Assembly (NCBI RefSeq): GCF_027579695.1 | Contig: NC_083577.1 | Span: forward strand, 37,342,198-37,406,197 | DNA: 64,000 nt | Direction: 5' to 3' | Origin: Neoarius graeffei | Lineage: Eukaryota; Chordata; Actinopteri; Siluriformes; Ariidae | Shown: piece after piece, positions 16,871 through 59,492 of the stretch | Position numbering within the stretch: the stretch's first letter is position 1 | Layout of the letters: every line of letters begins with the position of its first letter | The notes under the pieces: generated by a model | Database searches by the model: none | Seen by the model: the letters and a program-made list of their open reading frames with translations, nothing else | What the model was told of the DNA's origin: nothing | Position numbers and translations under genes: made by a program

Positions 16871-19800
16871 CTGGCAGAGTTAAGGATCAATGTGTGGATA
16901 AGGAAAAGATGATAAAAAAAAAATACAGCATGTTTAACATGTCTCAAAAGAAAAGGGAATGAATGACTTCTACAGTCAGTAACACTGGGTGTGAGATTGA
17001 TGATTTATGTAGTGCATGAGTGTGTTCATATATTTAAGATTATTATTTTTATTCACTGAGAGAATTCACTGCCTCAAGCAAAACACCCACGTATTATTCC
17101 CTAATAAAAGATAAAAAAAAAAAAAAAAACCTCAGTGTTCTCCTGTCTTTCTAATATCCTTTGGTCTTCTCTGTTTTGTGAATAACATGCTGCATGTGTG
17201 ATATATAAGGAATAAAACACAATGGGGCATGCAGATAATATCGGAAAAGGAATTAATGAAGGTGTCGTGTGATGCGTTCCTGCTACCAAAGTTACAAAGC
17301 GCATTCTTTTCCAATTACAGCACTTCCTGGGGCGGAGGATTCCTCATATACCACAGCAATTTATTAAAGAACGGCATCATACGCTTTTATAAGATAAATT
17401 CCTTCCTGTTATCACTTACATTATAGCAGCTTCTCTCTCGAAGTAAAAAAAACTGACCTCGAAGAAGTAAAAATTGTCCAGAAGACTTTCCCATGGCAGA
17501 AAACCTAAAGAAACATCTTCACCTCGGACACTGGAGACTCCTTCCATAAATGCAAAAATAAACCCATGTTCAGCTCAATCAATAATTACACATTTTTTTA
17601 ATTTAGAGTGTCCAGACTTAGAAGTTGAATCTATTATAGAAAAGCTAACATTAAAACAACATTCAGAGTCACTTAACACCTTTTGACCAGTCAGACTGGA
17701 GAAGAGCAGCGCTGTGGTATTAGGATACTATAGCTGATGATGACGCTGTAGTTTCCGGCGGGCAGGCCCTGTGCGAAGGGCGTACGAGCACGGTTGAGAA
17801 CGCCGTAGAGCTTTTTGAAGTTGGGGAAGGCCGCTTCTCTCATCCACACGATCAGATCGTCGTTGATGAAGCCGTTGTTGTTGGGATCGCCAGGGTCGAG
17901 ATCATACACCGGCTGCTGCCAGTACAACGGCTGAGCCGTACCTAAGACGACGTGAGAGTGTATGAGCTTATATGAAGTGTGTGTGTGTGTGTGTGCACGC
18001 GCACTCACATATGTACCTTCGAAGGCCTGCTGCAGTGTTGAGTTTGACTTGGGATTGTGGAACTTGATGTTTTTGTCCGTATACCAGGCGATGCCCTGCC
18101 TGAGGAGCGGAACAGCTATTTCAGCACCACCAGACAGATGATGCACCAGCATAAATGAATCTAAGATGAAAAAAAAAAAATGAAACAAGTCTAAGAATGA
18201 GAAAACTCAGTGTGATATAGAACAGAACCACTGCTTTTTTCACTATACTACTAATAATAATCTCATCTCATTATCTGTAGCCGCTTTATCCTGTTCTACA
18301 GGGTAGCAGGCAAGCTGGAGCCTATCCCAGCTGACTACAGGCGAAAGGTGGGGTACACCCTGGACAAGTCGCCAGGTCATCACAGGGCTGACACATAGAC
18401 ACAGACAACCATTCACACTCTCATTCACACCTACGGTCAATTTAGAGTCACCAGTTAACCTAACCTGCATGTCTTTGGACTGTGGGGGAAACCGGAGCAC
18501 CCGGAGGAAACCCACGCGGACACGGGGAGAACATGCAAACTCCGCATAGAAATATACACTCATTTTGAATTTGTCAGCAACATGTTTCAAAAAAGTTGGT
18601 TGCATCACCTGTACTTTTAACAACACTGTAAATGTTTGGGAACTGCAGGCAGGCCAGTTTAGCACCTGGACTCTTTTACTACGGAGCCATGCAGTTTTAA
18701 TATGTGCGGAAAGCAGTTTGGCACTGTCTTGAAGGAAGGCCTTCCCTGAAAAAGATTTTGTCTGGATGGCAGCATATTGCTCTGAAACGTGTATATATCA
18801 TTCAGCATTAATGATGCCTTCCCATGTGTAAAGGAATAACGCACTAATACACCCTCATACCATCACAGATGCTGGCTTTTGAACTGTGCACTGATAACAA
18901 GCTGGATGGTCCCTCTCCTCTTTAGCCTGGTGGATGTGGTGTCCATGATTTCTAAAAATAATTTCTCCTTTTCATTCGTCAGACCTCGGGACAATTTTCC
19001 ACTTCGCCTCAGTCCACCATACAAGAGCTCGGGCCCAGAGAAGGTGGTGGGGTTTCTGGATGTTGTTTATATCTGGTTTTAACTTGCATTTGTGGATGCA
19101 GTAATGAACTGTTTTCACAGACGATGGTTTTCTGAAGTGATCCTGAGTCCTACAGTGATTTCCACTACAGACATGTGGCTGCTTTTAATGCAGTGTCGCC
19201 TGAGGGCCTGAAGATCACAGGCATCCAAAGTCAGTTTTCAGCCTTGTCCCTTGCGTACGGAGATTTCTTCAGATTCTCTGAATCTTTTATTGATTTTATG
19301 TACCATAGATGATGTGATCCCCAAATTCTTTGCAATTTTACATCAAGGAATGTTATTCTTAAATCGTTGCACTGTTCGCCCACACAGTCTTTCACAGAGC
19401 GGTGAACCCCTCCCCGTCTTTACTTCTGAGAGACTCCATCTCTCTGGGATGCTCTTTTTATACCCAACCATCTTACTGACCTGTTGCCAATTAACCTCAT
19501 TAGTTTTTTTTTTTTTTTTTAAGCATTATACAACTTTTGTTGCCCCGTTCTAACTTATTTTGAAACATGTTGTTGACATCAAATTCAAAATAAGCATATA
19601 TTTTTCAAAAAACAATAAAATTTCTCAGTTTCAACATTTGATGTGTTGTATTTGTACAATTTTCAAAGAAATATTGGGTTTCCATGATTTGCAAATTATC
19701 ACAATATGTTTTTATTCACATTTTACACAGTGTCCCAACTTTTTTGTAATTGGGGTTGTAAAAAAGTCAAATTTAAATGTGAGACGTGCTCCAAGTACTT

Positions 19801-34700: not shown

Positions 34701-37700
34701 AGGTGAAAAAAGCGGAATTCCGCGAATTCGCGGAAAAATCACATCCCTGTAATACTATTGAAAATCCCATAGACCCGATTTTTAAAAAAATTCCACGAAG
34801 TTATGACGTGGAACTTGTACACCCCCAAAAAATGTGTTGTATACGTTGGGATTATCTACTAACTGTGAAAGTATCAGGTGAAATTTCGCTGTCTTTTAAA
34901 AGATCGAAATTGCGTCTAACCTGTCAGAAACGGACTACAACCAAACTGTCTAGTCAGAGTCACTCACATTACGTCAGCAGTAGGCTTAGCTATCCCACGA
35001 CCGGGAAGATCTGTGTATTTTGATCATGCTATGTTTTGCGCCAGACTGCAACCACCGGTCAGAGACAAATGGTTACAAATTTTTTTACTTTCCCAAAGGA
35101 TCCCGAACAACGTCGGATTTGGATTGAAATAATCAGGTGAGTTGCATGTACACAGATTTGGAAAGGCGCTAGACTTGCGGTGACGTCACATACGCGACGT
35201 CGGGTTCGTGTAGTCTTTGATCAGCTTATTAAAAAACGTTCAAAACAATTCAAATCGGTGGAAAAAAATAAAGTATGATCACCAGGATCGATAGAGCTGC
35301 CCGACATGCACAACATATGGAAGCCATTGTCTTAACTTTGAAGCGTAACGCGAAATGTAATTTTTTGAAAAGATATTCCCATTCACTTTGCCATAGAGGT
35401 TGGAACGCATCCAGTAGGGGGCGATGAGATTACTTTCCCTCCCTATTCTGGCACCATTGCACTGATTTGAATTGGTGACCCTGTGCACTCCAAATATACA
35501 AACATGACAAATTAAAGGAAAAGAATGGTGCCTGTTATGCTGCTGTATTTTTCTAACATGGTTTGTGTTCACTTTTCCCCTTAAACAGAAGCGTCACTAG
35601 GCCATTCGAACCTTTGTCCCAGTCTCAAACAGGTTTTCCGCCAGAATTGCCCTGTACTTTGTGCCATCCATCTGTTCCTTCAGTCCTTTCCTGTCCCTGC
35701 AGATGAAAAATATCCCCACAGCATGATGCTGCCACCACCATGCTTCACTGTAGGAATGGTGTTTTCAAAGTTTTCCTGACTGATCATCTTTATCCTCTGA
35801 TGAAACATTTTGGTCTCTCAACAATGTGTCAATCCACAGAGCACAAGAGCTCAGCGAATGATTTATTGTCGATGAGAACAATGTAAATCGTACGCTTTGG
35901 CCTTCACCGTCACCAGATTTCAAATAGACTGCAGACCTGCCAACCTTGAAGAGGAACGATGCATTCACTCGGATAAGGCAGAAACTGTAATGCAAGTAGA
36001 CTGATAATTAAGAACATTATGACCACTCATAGAAGTGAAGAACGTTGATTATTTGGTAACAATGGCGTATGTCAAGATCTGAAATATATTCGAAGGTAAG
36101 GGAAGAGTCAGTTCTTGTAGCTGACGTGTTGGATACAAAAGAAATGGACAGGTGTGAAGACTGGAGAGATTTTGACAAGGGACAAAAAAATGGTGGTCGA
36201 GAGAGGCTACGATACGAGACAACACATCTAAACGCAGAAAGCACATGCATCAATACGGCAATGCGTAGCTGCATCACAAAACATCTTGCAAACTGAGGAA
36301 AAATGATTGCAAACAAATACAGCGTACAACACATGCAACAATTTGATCAGAGAACATACCTGCTGCAAATTCAGACAACATTACATGACATGGTATTTAG
36401 CAGACGCTCTTATCCAGAGCTAGCCTGGCAAGCCAGACTAAATGTGAATATTTAGTCTGGCCTCGATCCGTAGACATTTCCGACGGGTGTGGGAGGAACA
36501 ACCCGCTGTCTTTCAAACTGTCTCTGTGCGTATAGGCCAACGCTCTGACCGATCAGCGCAACAGTGACTGTGACGTAGTCAGAGCGACAGAAAGCAGTGG
36601 GGGAGGCCTTGAAATAAATAATTTTTCAAAATGCGTATTAATTAATAAACAGGTTCTAGAGATTAAGAAGTTTGGAGATAATGACCACAAGTTTGGAGTC
36701 TGTACCACGTACTTAACATACACTCTTATTTTTTCCAAGTGTTTTTCAAGGGTTTGCTTAAACTGTTTTTGAGAGTTTTTATTTAGTGGTGTTTGGTGAA
36801 ATAATTTCCCTTAAATTTAAAATAACGGGAAAATAAGAAACAATCAAAAAGTAATGTTTCAAAGCTGTTTATTAATTCTTCGTACTGCACAAACTAGCCC
36901 CATCCTTTTGGCTACGAGCGGAGCCAGCTGGTAGATCAGACTTTTGCCATAGCCGGTCGGCAAAACAGCGAAAACGTCCTTCTTGAAAAGGAATGAGCGG
37001 AGAGCCTCTTCCTGCTCATGTTTCAACGAAAACTTCAAGTCTAATTCTTCTAAAACTGATTCCAAAGCGGAGTCAAACGCGCCCTGTTCTCTAGCCGTAG
37101 CCATCTTTCCTGTTGCGCTTTCTCCAGCGTCACGCAGCTTTGTCGTCACTCCTGCAAAATCCCGCCCAAAGAATCCAAACAAAAACCTTGCGTTGTGATT
37201 GGCGGGCACGATTTGATGCCCGGGGTGTTTTTGTTGATATGGTGCGAGGCTAGACCCACTCGCTAGGCAAAAATATTTTTGGCCGCTAGGCGGGTGGGTC
37301 TAGTTTACTAGGCTAATCCAGAGCGATGTACAATGAGTGCAAAAGTCAGGTACACGAAGTGCTGAACTTCTAGACAAGAAAGTTCTAGTGCCAACTGAAC
37401 AAGTGACAGCAATACCTAGTGTAATATTCTGTTGATGTACCAATACTCAAACAGCCAAGGAAACAAACCAACCATATAAAGTACAACTAAATAGAGAACT
37501 CAAATGACTTCCCCCCCCCCAGCCTGGGTTGGTCTAAACCGAAACGCAGTTACACAGTGGGCAGGGAAGCAGGGGAGTCTTTAGTTTGCGCTTGAAAGTG
37601 GTCGGCAGTTCTGACCTCAACGGGAAGGTCATTCCACCAACAGGGAGCCAGGACAGACAGCAGTCTTGAGCGGGCTGGGCAGGACCGGAGAGGAGGAGGA

Positions 37701-43700: not shown

Positions 43701-46700
43701 GCGACGCTGTCTGCGAGGCTTTTGCGGTGGTCATAATTTTTGGGAGGTGCGCGCAGAGCGTCTGCGAGGGTGGGGGGGGGCTACGCTGACGCTATCTGCG
43801 ACACCGTCTGAAAGGACTGCGTTGTCAGCATAAATTGGCCTTTAAGGCATGAGTCGGACTACAAGCCTGCCATCATCATCATCTAAACACCATATCTTTT
43901 GGAAGAATGGTGTTCACCGCTCCAGCACAGTTCCAGAGACCTTTTGAATCTACGCCGAGATGCACTGAAGCCGTTCTGCTGGTGGAAGCTGTTCAGCTCG
44001 TGGTGGCTCGACACCTTACCAAAGGTGCTTTGCAGTATTTAGTTTGTCTGAACGGGAACTGAACCCTGGTGTGTTTTATTCATTTAGTGCAGTTTGTTTA
44101 AACAGGTGAGAATAAGGCAATCATGTTTGTATCTGGTTTCAAGTGAACTCTAACGAAGGTTGATTGCATTGTGAAAGTGATTCATCCATGAACTGATGTG
44201 ATGACAGGAAGTGAACCAAGCGTGCAGTATGTTGTTATAGACAAAAGCTGCTAAAAAGAGCTGTTTAGCATCCTTTCACATCCAGAGAAAATACTGGATG
44301 TGATGCATAAAACCAGTCATAAATATGATTGTTCCCCATGATGTTCTCGGTGTTCTCCATGATTTTTCATGATTAGGTTTACAGACTAACACGTTGTATG
44401 TCCAAAAGTATCTGCACACCCGCATGCAGGTCTTCCCCAAACTGGTGCCATAAAATTGGAGCGCCAAAGTGTTTAGGATGTCTCTGTATGCTGTAGAATG
44501 ACAATTTCCCTTCACTGGAACCAATGCCCCTTTTCCACCAAAGCAGTTCCAGGGCTGGTTCGGGGTAGCCTGGGCCCGCCCATCCTAAGCATGACGCAAC
44601 ACGAGGGCCTGTTCCGAGCTTAGTCTGGCCAGGCAGGCTATCTACAGCATTTCCAAGCTCCCAAAAAATCGGGAACCAGTCAACTTTGAGCATCTCCAAC
44701 GGCCCTGGGTAGAGGCGTGTTCAAGGCACTGACGTAGTAGAACTGCGACCGGAAGCCATAGATTGTTTACAGAATCTATGCCGGAAGCGCTTCATTCACA
44801 TCACGAACATGGAGCAGCAGCAAGCCTTTAACACAGCGGTAGATGCTGTATTGAAAGCATTCAACGGGAAGTTCTCATTGAAAACGGAGCAAAGAGCAGC
44901 CCTGGAGGTATTTATTGAAAGGAAGGACGTTTTCGCCTTGCTCCCGACCGGCTTCGGTAAGAGTTTAATCTACCAGTTAGCCCCGTCGCGTCGCATACGT
45001 CAGAGGAAAGAGTGATGTGATTGGTTTAAACTTCGTCACAGCCTTTTCTGGCTTCGACCAGTAGCAAACTGAGGCATTTCAGGGAGGCGGGTCAACCACG
45101 GGCTCTGGGAAACGGTTTGGCTTAATAGCTTGGCCAGACCAAATGCTCGGAGAGCTTTGAAGTCGCGTTAGCCAGGCTAGGTTCGGAACCGGGTTTTCTG
45201 CTTCCACTGACAAAGAACTGGCTCTGGGGCCAGAAAAAGCGGTTCCAGGCTAGCACCAGCTCTCTGCTGGGCCAGAGGAAAGAACCGCTTACATCAGTGG
45301 AGGGGCGGAGTTGTTAAGACCAACAACAATAACAAGACTGCGAAAGATCGCCATTTTTAAGCGACGAGAAGCCGCAGCTGTACAAACGCGAAGTCATTCA
45401 TTATTATTATTGTTGTTGTTGCTGCTGCTTCTTCCGCGTTGTTTTTGCTTCGATATTCGCGCCAAGGTTTATGCAAACGTAGCGACGTAACTGACGTATA
45501 CAGCGACGTAACTGACGTATACAGCGACGTAATGACGTGGCTTCCCTTAGCGCCGCAAGCTATGGAAAAGCAAACTGGTTCTCAGCTGGCTCGCAAGTTG
45601 AACGAGTTGTGAACCAGCACCAGCACTGGCCCCGAACCAGCCCTGGGACTGATTTGGTGGAAAAGGGGTATAAGAGGCCTAAATATGTTCCAGCATGACA
45701 ATGCACATGTGCACAAAGCGAGCTTCATGGTTTGCCAAGGTTGGTGTGAATGACCTCAAGTAGCTCGAGCCCTGGATTCAACCCCACTGAACACCTTTGG
45801 GATGAATTCCCACAGCAATGTTCAAAAATCGAGTGGAAAGCCTTCCCAGAAGAGTGGAGGTTATTGGAGTAACCAAAAAACAAACCAACCCCAAAACCCA
45901 ACCCCTCCATATTAATACACATGGTTTTGGAATGGGATGTTCAACATGCACATCTGGTCCACACAATTTTGGTTTGCTTTATGTTGTTTTTTTCCTTTAA
46001 TTTGTTGTTTGTACATATGCTGAACTGTATTTTTGGACTGGGTTCCGTCTCACCTTTTTGGTGAATGTAAAAAGGAAATTAATTATTATACATACAGGAC
46101 ACTTCTTCGATGGAATAAAAGCATGTGCTCTATTCCCTTCTAGCGAGTTTCATTCATTGGGTTTGATAGCATGCAATATTGTTAGCATATCGCTTATCCT
46201 ACGTGTATTACGTCACTCTACCCAGTGGAGAATGAGCATTGAATATCTCATCTCATCTCATCTCATCATCTCTAGCCGCTTTATCCTGTCCTACAGGGTC
46301 GCAGGCAAGCTGGAGCCTATCCCAGCTGACTACGGGCGAAAGGCGGGGTACACCCTGGACAAGTCACCAGGTCATCACAGGGCTGACACTAGACAACCAT
46401 TCACACTCACATTCACACCTACGGTCAATTTAGAGTCACCAGTTAACCTAACCTGCATGTCTTTGGACTGTGGGGGAAACCGGAGCACCCGGAGGAAACC
46501 CACGCGGACACGGGGAGAACATGCAAACTCCGCACAGAAAGGCCCTCGCCGACCACAGGGCTCGAACCCGGACCTTCTTGCTGTGAGGCAACAGTGCTAA
46601 CAACTACGTCACCGCGCCGCCCAGCGTTGAATATGGTTTACAATATTGCATGGTTGTCAAGACAACATGACGTCACGTCATTAAATACGGAAGATTTTGA

Positions 46701-57890: not shown

Positions 57891-58107
57891 AATATCCTAG
57901 CTTAGTAAACTAGACCCACCCGCCTAGCGGCCAAAAATATTTTTGCCTAGCGAGTGGGTCTAGCCTCGCACCATATCAACAAAACACCCCGGGCATCAAA
58001 TCGTGCCCGCCAATCACAACGCAAGGTTTTTGTTTGGATTCTTTGGGCGGGCTTTTGCAGGAGTGACGACAAAGCTGCGCGACGCTGGAGAAAGCGCAGC
58101 AAGAAAG

Positions 58108-58317
58108 ATGGCTACGGCTAGTGAACAGCGCGTGTTTGAATCCGCTTTGGAATCAGTTTTAGAAGAATTAGACTTGGAGTTTTCGTTGAAACATGAGCAG
58201 GAAGAGGCTCTCCGCTCATTCCTTTTCAAGAAGGACGTTTTTGCTGTTTTGCCGACCGGCTATGGCAAAAGTCTGATCTACCAGCTGGCTCCGCTCGTAG
58301 CCAAAAGGATGGGCTAG
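58108..58317 (+). CDS. RecQ-type helicase N-terminal fragment in TIR element 3 (69 aa)
   Basis: ATG at 58108 in AAAGATGGCTAC context: [69 protein letters not shown], then stop TAG. Motif 0 and Walker A are intact. It differs from copy 1 by a handful of residues and ends earlier, because copy 1 reads past this stop into [12 protein letters not shown]. Everything needed for helicase activity after motif I is missing. Confidence 0.75.
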   Translation: MATASEQRVFESALESVLEELDLEFSLKHEQEEALRSFLFKKDVFAVLPTGYGKSLIYQLAPLVAKRMG

Positions 58318-58772
58318 TTTGTGCAGTACGAAGAATTAATAAACAGCTTTGAAACATTACTTTTTGATTGTTTCTTATTTTCCCGTTATTTTAAATTTAA
58401 GGGAAATTATTTCACCAAACACCACTAAATAAAAACTCTCAAAAACAGTTTAAGCAAACCCTTGAAAAACACTTGAAAAAAAAAATAAGTGTATGTTAAG
58501 TATGTGGTACAGACTCCAAACTTGTGGTCATTATCTCCAAACTTCTTAATATCTAGAACCTGTTTATTAATTAATACGCATTTTGAAAAATTATTTATTT
58601 CAAGGCCTCCCCCACTGCTTTCTGTCGCTCTGACTACGTCACAGTCACTGTTGCGCTGATTGGTCAGAGCGTTGGCCTATACGCACAGAGACAGTTTGAA
58701 AGACAGCGGGTTGTTCCTCCCACACCCGTCGGAAATGTCTACGAGCGAGGCCAGACTAAACATTCACATTTA

Positions 58773-59462
58773 GGTGGGGTTTACATTAGACCGTATCAGC
58801 GGATCATCAGATTAACGTTTTTAAAACGATTAGTGTGCACACAGCAACACCAATACACGATTCGCGTGCACACAGCAACGCCAATACACGGATACGCTCG
58901 GCTCCGCAGGCATCCTGCGCTCCAAATCACTCCGCCCTGAACAGCGAGTGCCCTCTGGAGGGTGCGCACTCCGGCCCTGCGCAGCTCACACAGCGTGCGA
59001 GTGGAGTGCACAAGCAGTGATTCGGGACTGAGCCGCTGTGTGTGTGATCCCAGCGCATATCACTTACCACTTGCAAGTGGAAGGATGGCAAGCCTAAAGA
59101 CAATCATAACTACACAATGGGCAGTATTTGCATCAGTATTTGCAGTATTTTCATACTTTTATACTCTTTAATGAAAGGTGATACAAGGCGGAAGTCCGCG
59201 CCGTTTTTCAGCAGTCGCGTCACATGACCAACGCCAGCGAATCAGGAAGGTGGATGTCACAGTGACGTTGTCCAATGAGACGCCAGCTAGAGCTCAGCAC
59301 AGAGTATCCGCGTATTCTCAATGTTTACACAGCACCGGACCAGACACGATCTGGATTGAATACGTGGACCCTGGCGGATTCCCGTTTCCCGGCGTTTTAA
59401 TGTAAACGGACAGTGCATCCGCGAAGAAAACGAGACAGATACGGTCTAATGTAAACTTGGCC
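58773..59462. mobile_element. PIF/Harbinger-like MITE nested in RecQ-fragment element 3
   Basis: 690 bp. The ends GGTGGGGTTTACATTAGACCG and (complement) GGCCAAGTTTACATTAGACC match at 17 of 21. TTA at 58770-58772 and 59463-59465. No transposase frame. Confidence 0.82.
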
Positions 59463-59492
59463 TTAGTCTGGCTTGCCAGGCTACAAATATCC

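Follow-up and report, generated by a model that had tools for sequence, protein, structure and literature searches.

Small elements with a RecQ helicase fragment in the Neoarius graeffei genome are probably internal-deletion derivatives of AcademH-like transposons that carry a DUF6589 gene

The window, a 64,000-nucleotide stretch of Neoarius graeffei contig NC_083577.1 (forward-strand positions 37,342,198 to 37,406,197), contains three small elements, e1, e2 and e3, which share TAGCCTGG-type ends and each enclose a RecQ N-terminal open reading frame (ORF) with motif 0 and Walker A, as described in the initial annotation. Element e1 (36421..37315, 895 bp, plus strand) is an apparent AcademH-type internal-deletion derivative with ends TAGCCTGG and CTAGGCTA, flanked by a 9-bp target-site duplication (TSD) that reads ATCCAGAGC on the left (36412..36420) and matches the right copy (37316..37324) at nine of nine positions. 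Three parts can be distinguished within it. The left part (36421..36606, plus strand) is 186 bp of the transposase-side end of a longer parent element, with 96.2% identity to the copy at C1:66384384-66393986; the middle part (36607..36894, plus strand) is 288 bp without counterpart in the parent loci compared; and the right part (36895..37315, plus strand) is 421 bp of the parent's helicase-side end, with 94.1% identity to the full element. The truncated RecQ ORF of e1 (36859..37104, minus strand) encodes 81 amino acids followed by a stop codon, and after motif 0 and Walker A it closes with 11 residues that derive from the 288-bp stretch.

Element e2 (57898..59483, minus strand) is a second copy of the same family, being 97.4% identical to e1, and also has a 9/9 TSD. 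Its length of 1586 bp, against 895 bp for e1 and a roughly equal length for the e1 matches listed elsewhere in the genome, is due to a nested 690-bp terminal inverted repeat element (58773..59462) with TTA on either side and mirrored TTTACATTAGACCGTATC ends, which is Harbinger-like as judged by this 3-bp duplication. The RecQ ORF of e2 (58108..58317, plus strand) is shortened to 69 amino acids by a one-base deletion. Element e3 (44566..45179, 614 bp, plus strand) matches the e1 family at 78% over 64 bp of the helicase stretch and is placed in a separate, related family; it combines the left 420 bp and the right 197 bp of its own parent and has a TSD matching at 7/9 positions. Its RecQ ORF (44809..45015, plus strand; 68 amino acids, with motif 0 and Walker A) corresponds to the first helicase exon of that parent.

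All four ends (4/4) of the two families start with TAGCCT(G/A)G, that is, TAGCCTGG or TAGCCTAG, and all four contain GTCT(A/G)GCC (GTCTGGCC or GTCTAGCC) at 35-61 bp, where 0.006 occurrences per end are expected at the window's own rate. This subterminal motif is probably a second protein-binding site. The ends of e1 also hold imperfect internal palindromes of their own (36432-36461, 87%; 37250-37303, 79%), which are separate from the paired ends. Further TAGCCTGG matches lie at 18923 and 45245 of the window, with no partner end noticed for either.

The RecQ identity of the truncated frame was examined by profile and structure comparisons. The e1 ORF matched TIGR00614 over residues 26-72 with an E-value of 9.5e-11 and a score of 41 bits, which lies far under the whole-protein cut-off of 219.8 because only a fragment of the protein is present. 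With PF00270 it scored 26.4 bits, the gathering score being 26, and among solved chains RECQ5 was its best match, with BLM, RECQ1 and WRN also among the matches.

In order to examine the flanking duplications beyond the window, the genome (G000, 2.34 Gb) was searched with e1, and the best 40 of 2836 first-look candidates were scored; these 40 are the closest copies and not a random sample. A set of 19 copies, made up of 18 of the 40 (e1 included) and e2, was used for the comparison of TSDs. As called, 16 of the 19 have an exact 9-bp duplication. One further copy, on C12, matches at 2/9 positions as called but has a perfect 10-bp duplication, owing to an A in place of the element's initial T; the remaining two are L003, with an 8/9 duplication, and L002, without a clean one (5/9). 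When lengths of 5 to 14 bp were compared, nine alone stood out, with a mean match of 0.93 versus 0.24-0.34, and among 342 mismatched flank pairs that served as a control none reached 9/9, two reached 8/9 and four reached 7/9. The 9-bp duplications that the initial annotation reported at e1 (9/9), e2 (9/9) and e3 (7/9) hold at most of the other copies also. Since control pairs reach 7/9, the value for e3 is weak on its own and draws its support from the relatives of e3.

A search of the same genome with RecQ profiles listed 44 matches out of 6551 first-look candidates, and these comprised scattered host-like exons together with a multi-copy group that falls into two main pieces. Three long elements with paired e1-type ends and a 9/9 TSD were found, at C1:66384384-66393986 (9603 bp), C2:34306348-34316816 (10469 bp) and C20:6244123-6260035 (15913 bp), and one parent of the e3 type, L037, lies at C2:109882503-109887865 (5363 bp), with a 9/9 TSD and DUF6589 at L045. 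Insertions aside, the C2 and C20 e1-type parents align to the C1 copy at 92-99% identity, with one 32-bp piece at 100%. All three carry two genes that read inward: from the right end one for a RecQ helicase, and from the left end, on the opposite strand, one that contains DUF6589 (PF20231). The helicase begins some 200 bp from one end of the element. In the C1 copy it comprises an open frame of 226 amino acids with a DEAD domain, then a short exon, and finally an open frame of 410 amino acids with Helicase_C; the e1-type parent on C2 shows the same three pieces, and in the one on C20 the last helicase exon is split between frames. The DUF6589 gene has several exons, the last of which match in all three e1-type parents, and is broken in the C1 copy. 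The helicase of the L037 type shares 54-69% protein identity, in pieces, with the e1-type helicase. In addition, a further e3-type copy was seen at C20:1.57 Mb, with helicase, DUF6589 and one end. Larger partners that combine the same ends and 9-bp duplications with a RecQ helicase and a transposase candidate thus exist at four loci, and the option, raised in the initial annotation, that the fragment is a truncated portion of an autonomous element with its own helicase is borne out by the three e1-type loci and the one e3-type locus.

The path from parent to small copy can be followed through copies of intermediate length. Seven e1-type copies of about 1.0-1.3 kb (1037-1261 bp) were found, and five of them (L029, L031, L032, L033 and L034) were aligned to the parent. 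In each of the five, 170-223 bp from the parent's left side is fused to 873-1075 bp from its right side, and the junction is a different one every time: three show an overlap of 3-7 bases, and the other two contain 3 and 19 additional bases. Five deletion junctions from one parent argue that the copies in the window are likewise internal-deletion derivatives. L029, L030 and L040 share their duplication and flanks and are therefore regarded as one insertion, a 1169-bp derivative that was copied along with a larger surrounding repeat or duplicated segment.

For e3, positions 1-420, the helicase end, are 97.9% identical to L037, and positions 418-614 (197 bp) are 95.4% identical to the end at C20:1571561-1571757 (L027), so that the two halves overlap by 3 bases. 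Part of this 197-bp end is missing from L037, and the stretch was considered as filler; this was rejected, as it is the end of the C20:1.57-Mb copy and the deletion is a clean one. The 288-bp stretch of e1 (36607-36894) is present in nine e1-type copies that were read through and absent from the parents compared. No convincing match to it was found in the loci compared, the best outside the e1 family being 28 bases with an E-value of 0.006, and it may stem from another parent variant. Beyond the e1 junction the reading of the parent helicase goes on (SENPMVVIVSPLVALMEDQ), and the RecQ ORF of the small copies ends where it does because the deletion begins there. As the first helicase exon of the parent lies near one end, every small copy retains a helicase N-terminal stretch.

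The elements in the window very probably belong to two related families of AcademH kind, as copies that have lost their interior and are not autonomous, and a parent with helicase and DUF6589 genes would mobilize them in trans. Such a parent carries a RecQ-type helicase gene at one end and a gene for the DUF6589 protein, a probable DDE transposase, which reads in the opposite orientation from the far end. Interior deletions left both ends in place and, with them, the helicase N-terminal stretch, the peptide of the small copies being a passive remnant. The parent transposase, probably together with the helicase, would act in trans on the retained ends; the helicase may assist end opening or gap processing, and cutting and insertion would take place with a 9-bp stagger, which is observed as the duplication, presumably through DDE chemistry. 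In Ds and dSpm derivatives, too, the ends are kept, the interior is lost and movement is attributed to the parent acting in trans. The elements described here differ from these in the helicase remnant and in the 288-bp stretch of e1. What could be taken for gene capture thereby becomes a set of parent and derivatives, with long, intermediate and small copies in one genome, and the comparison of copies fixes both the duplication length and the end motifs. For annotators, this is a warning that an N-terminal ORF resembling RecQ in such a genome may be a relic of a transposon.

The candidate role of the second gene rests on its protein sequence. Pfam classes DUF6589 as a family of unknown function. 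Its exons contain candidate acidic residues in ILDNLDF (MDNLDF in the other family), GGDRLT and LHLEHL, with a Cys2His2-like stretch between GGDRLT and LHLEHL, and the protein is a probable DDE transposase candidate. A search for relatives returned no pattern match in viral_contigs and 124 pattern matches in genome_contigs, none of them confirmed. The association of DUF6589 with transposons that carry RecQ and duplicate 9 bp marks it as a transposase candidate open to testing, and we regard this link as the most useful by-product of the analysis. A second DUF6589 group (L047-L052), with no RecQ there among the 44 matches listed, has open frames of 194-667 amino acids.

KolobokH, whose duplications are TTAA, was considered as a superfamily and set aside, as varied 9-bp sequences are duplicated here instead. 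It resembles the present elements as a DNA transposon carrying a RecQ helicase, and differs from them in its host range, being described from fungi only in the cited text (PMC9587614). AcademH elements are introduced as "Academ DNA transposons encoding helicase", their duplications being 9 or 10 bp long (PMC10045372), a RecQ helicase is mentioned as occurring in Academ (PMC3627910), and AcademH is known from animals and fungi, going by the title of the describing paper (Kojima 2020, Mob DNA 11:15). Both features are found here: a RecQ helicase (DEAD and Helicase_C) lies inside elements bounded by paired ends, and a TSD of 9 or 10 bp is exact in 17 of the 19 small copies and 9/9 in the four parents. 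As the combination of RecQ and 9-bp duplications is what is printed for AcademH, the elements fit new families of AcademH type with abundant deletion derivatives, an assignment made by the published description of helicase and TSD rather than by transposase comparison. They depart from fungal AcademH, stated to be low-copy (PMC10799480), in the abundance of the 895-bp derivative (best 40 of 2836 candidates). The view in the initial annotation that no fish equivalent had been described goes too far for the Academ superfamily, which is reported from zebrafish, medaka and stickleback (PMC4746887).

Alternatively, the elements could come from another superfamily, perhaps one not yet described, whose DUF6589 transposase gained a RecQ helicase independently of AcademH. 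No paper containing the word DUF6589 was found in the open-licence library searched, and the presence of RecQ helicases in KolobokH as well indicates that they have been acquired more than once (PMC9587614). Against this stands the agreement of RecQ and 9-bp TSD with the features printed for AcademH, and a separate superfamily appears unlikely.

Selection on the truncated peptide can be compared with that on the intact helicase. Between the two families, differences in the last helicase exon (381 codons) number 126 at first, 79 at second and 231 at third codon positions, and those in the first exon (153 codons) number 51, 34 and 89; at the sequence level, this is the pattern of a constrained protein. 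The peptide was tested in 29 small copies of the e1 family, namely e2 and 28 of the 40 listed ones, against a null in which changes were shuffled at random among positions of the same base and CpG class. The 33 distinct changes are spread as 13, 10 and 10 over the three codon positions, and a dearth of second-position changes in an early set of nine copies (1 of 13) was gone with 29 copies. The truncated RecQ peptide is not visibly maintained, and its mutation pattern appears neutral. A functional peptide, for instance a trans-acting repressor that has been kept for this reason, could be argued from the ~420 bp that both families retain at the helicase end, cut soon after motif I, and from an ORF that remains open in 27 of the 29 copies. 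Set against these are the changes themselves, 24 of the 33 being non-synonymous or stop changes versus 22.3 +/- 2.3 expected, with two stop changes versus 1.2 expected, and a maintained function is highly improbable. A related scenario, in which the two families shrank independently while keeping the ~420-bp helicase end and a founder RecQ stub regulated the parent helicase in trans before later copies drifted neutrally, is a long shot also.

Like the elements in the window, Pack-MULEs enclose a piece of a gene within inverted ends and are flanked by 9-bp duplications, and the initial annotation had raised a Pack-MULE-like uptake of host RecQ sequence between transposon ends. A Pfam scan of 18 parent or relative stretches, with ORFs of the parents among them, found no MULE domain, the mark of a MULE transposase in a partner element. 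Seven host-like RecQ loci (L009-L012, L015, L017 and L020; "host-like" as inferred from exon spacing) were compared with the helicase exons and gave no DNA match at an E-value of 1e-3, so that the host exons matching at DNA level that capture would predict were not among them; the four of the seven that aligned in protein share 43-60% identity with the transposon helicase, L009 providing the sole host-like motif-I exon in this comparison, from which the exons on C6, C22 and C26 were left out. Capture of a host gene can hardly be credited on this evidence. The helicase end of e1 is 93.7-95.2% identical in DNA to the transposon loci, and a match of ~94-95% to the parent's first helicase exon identifies the fragment as the transposon's own gene.
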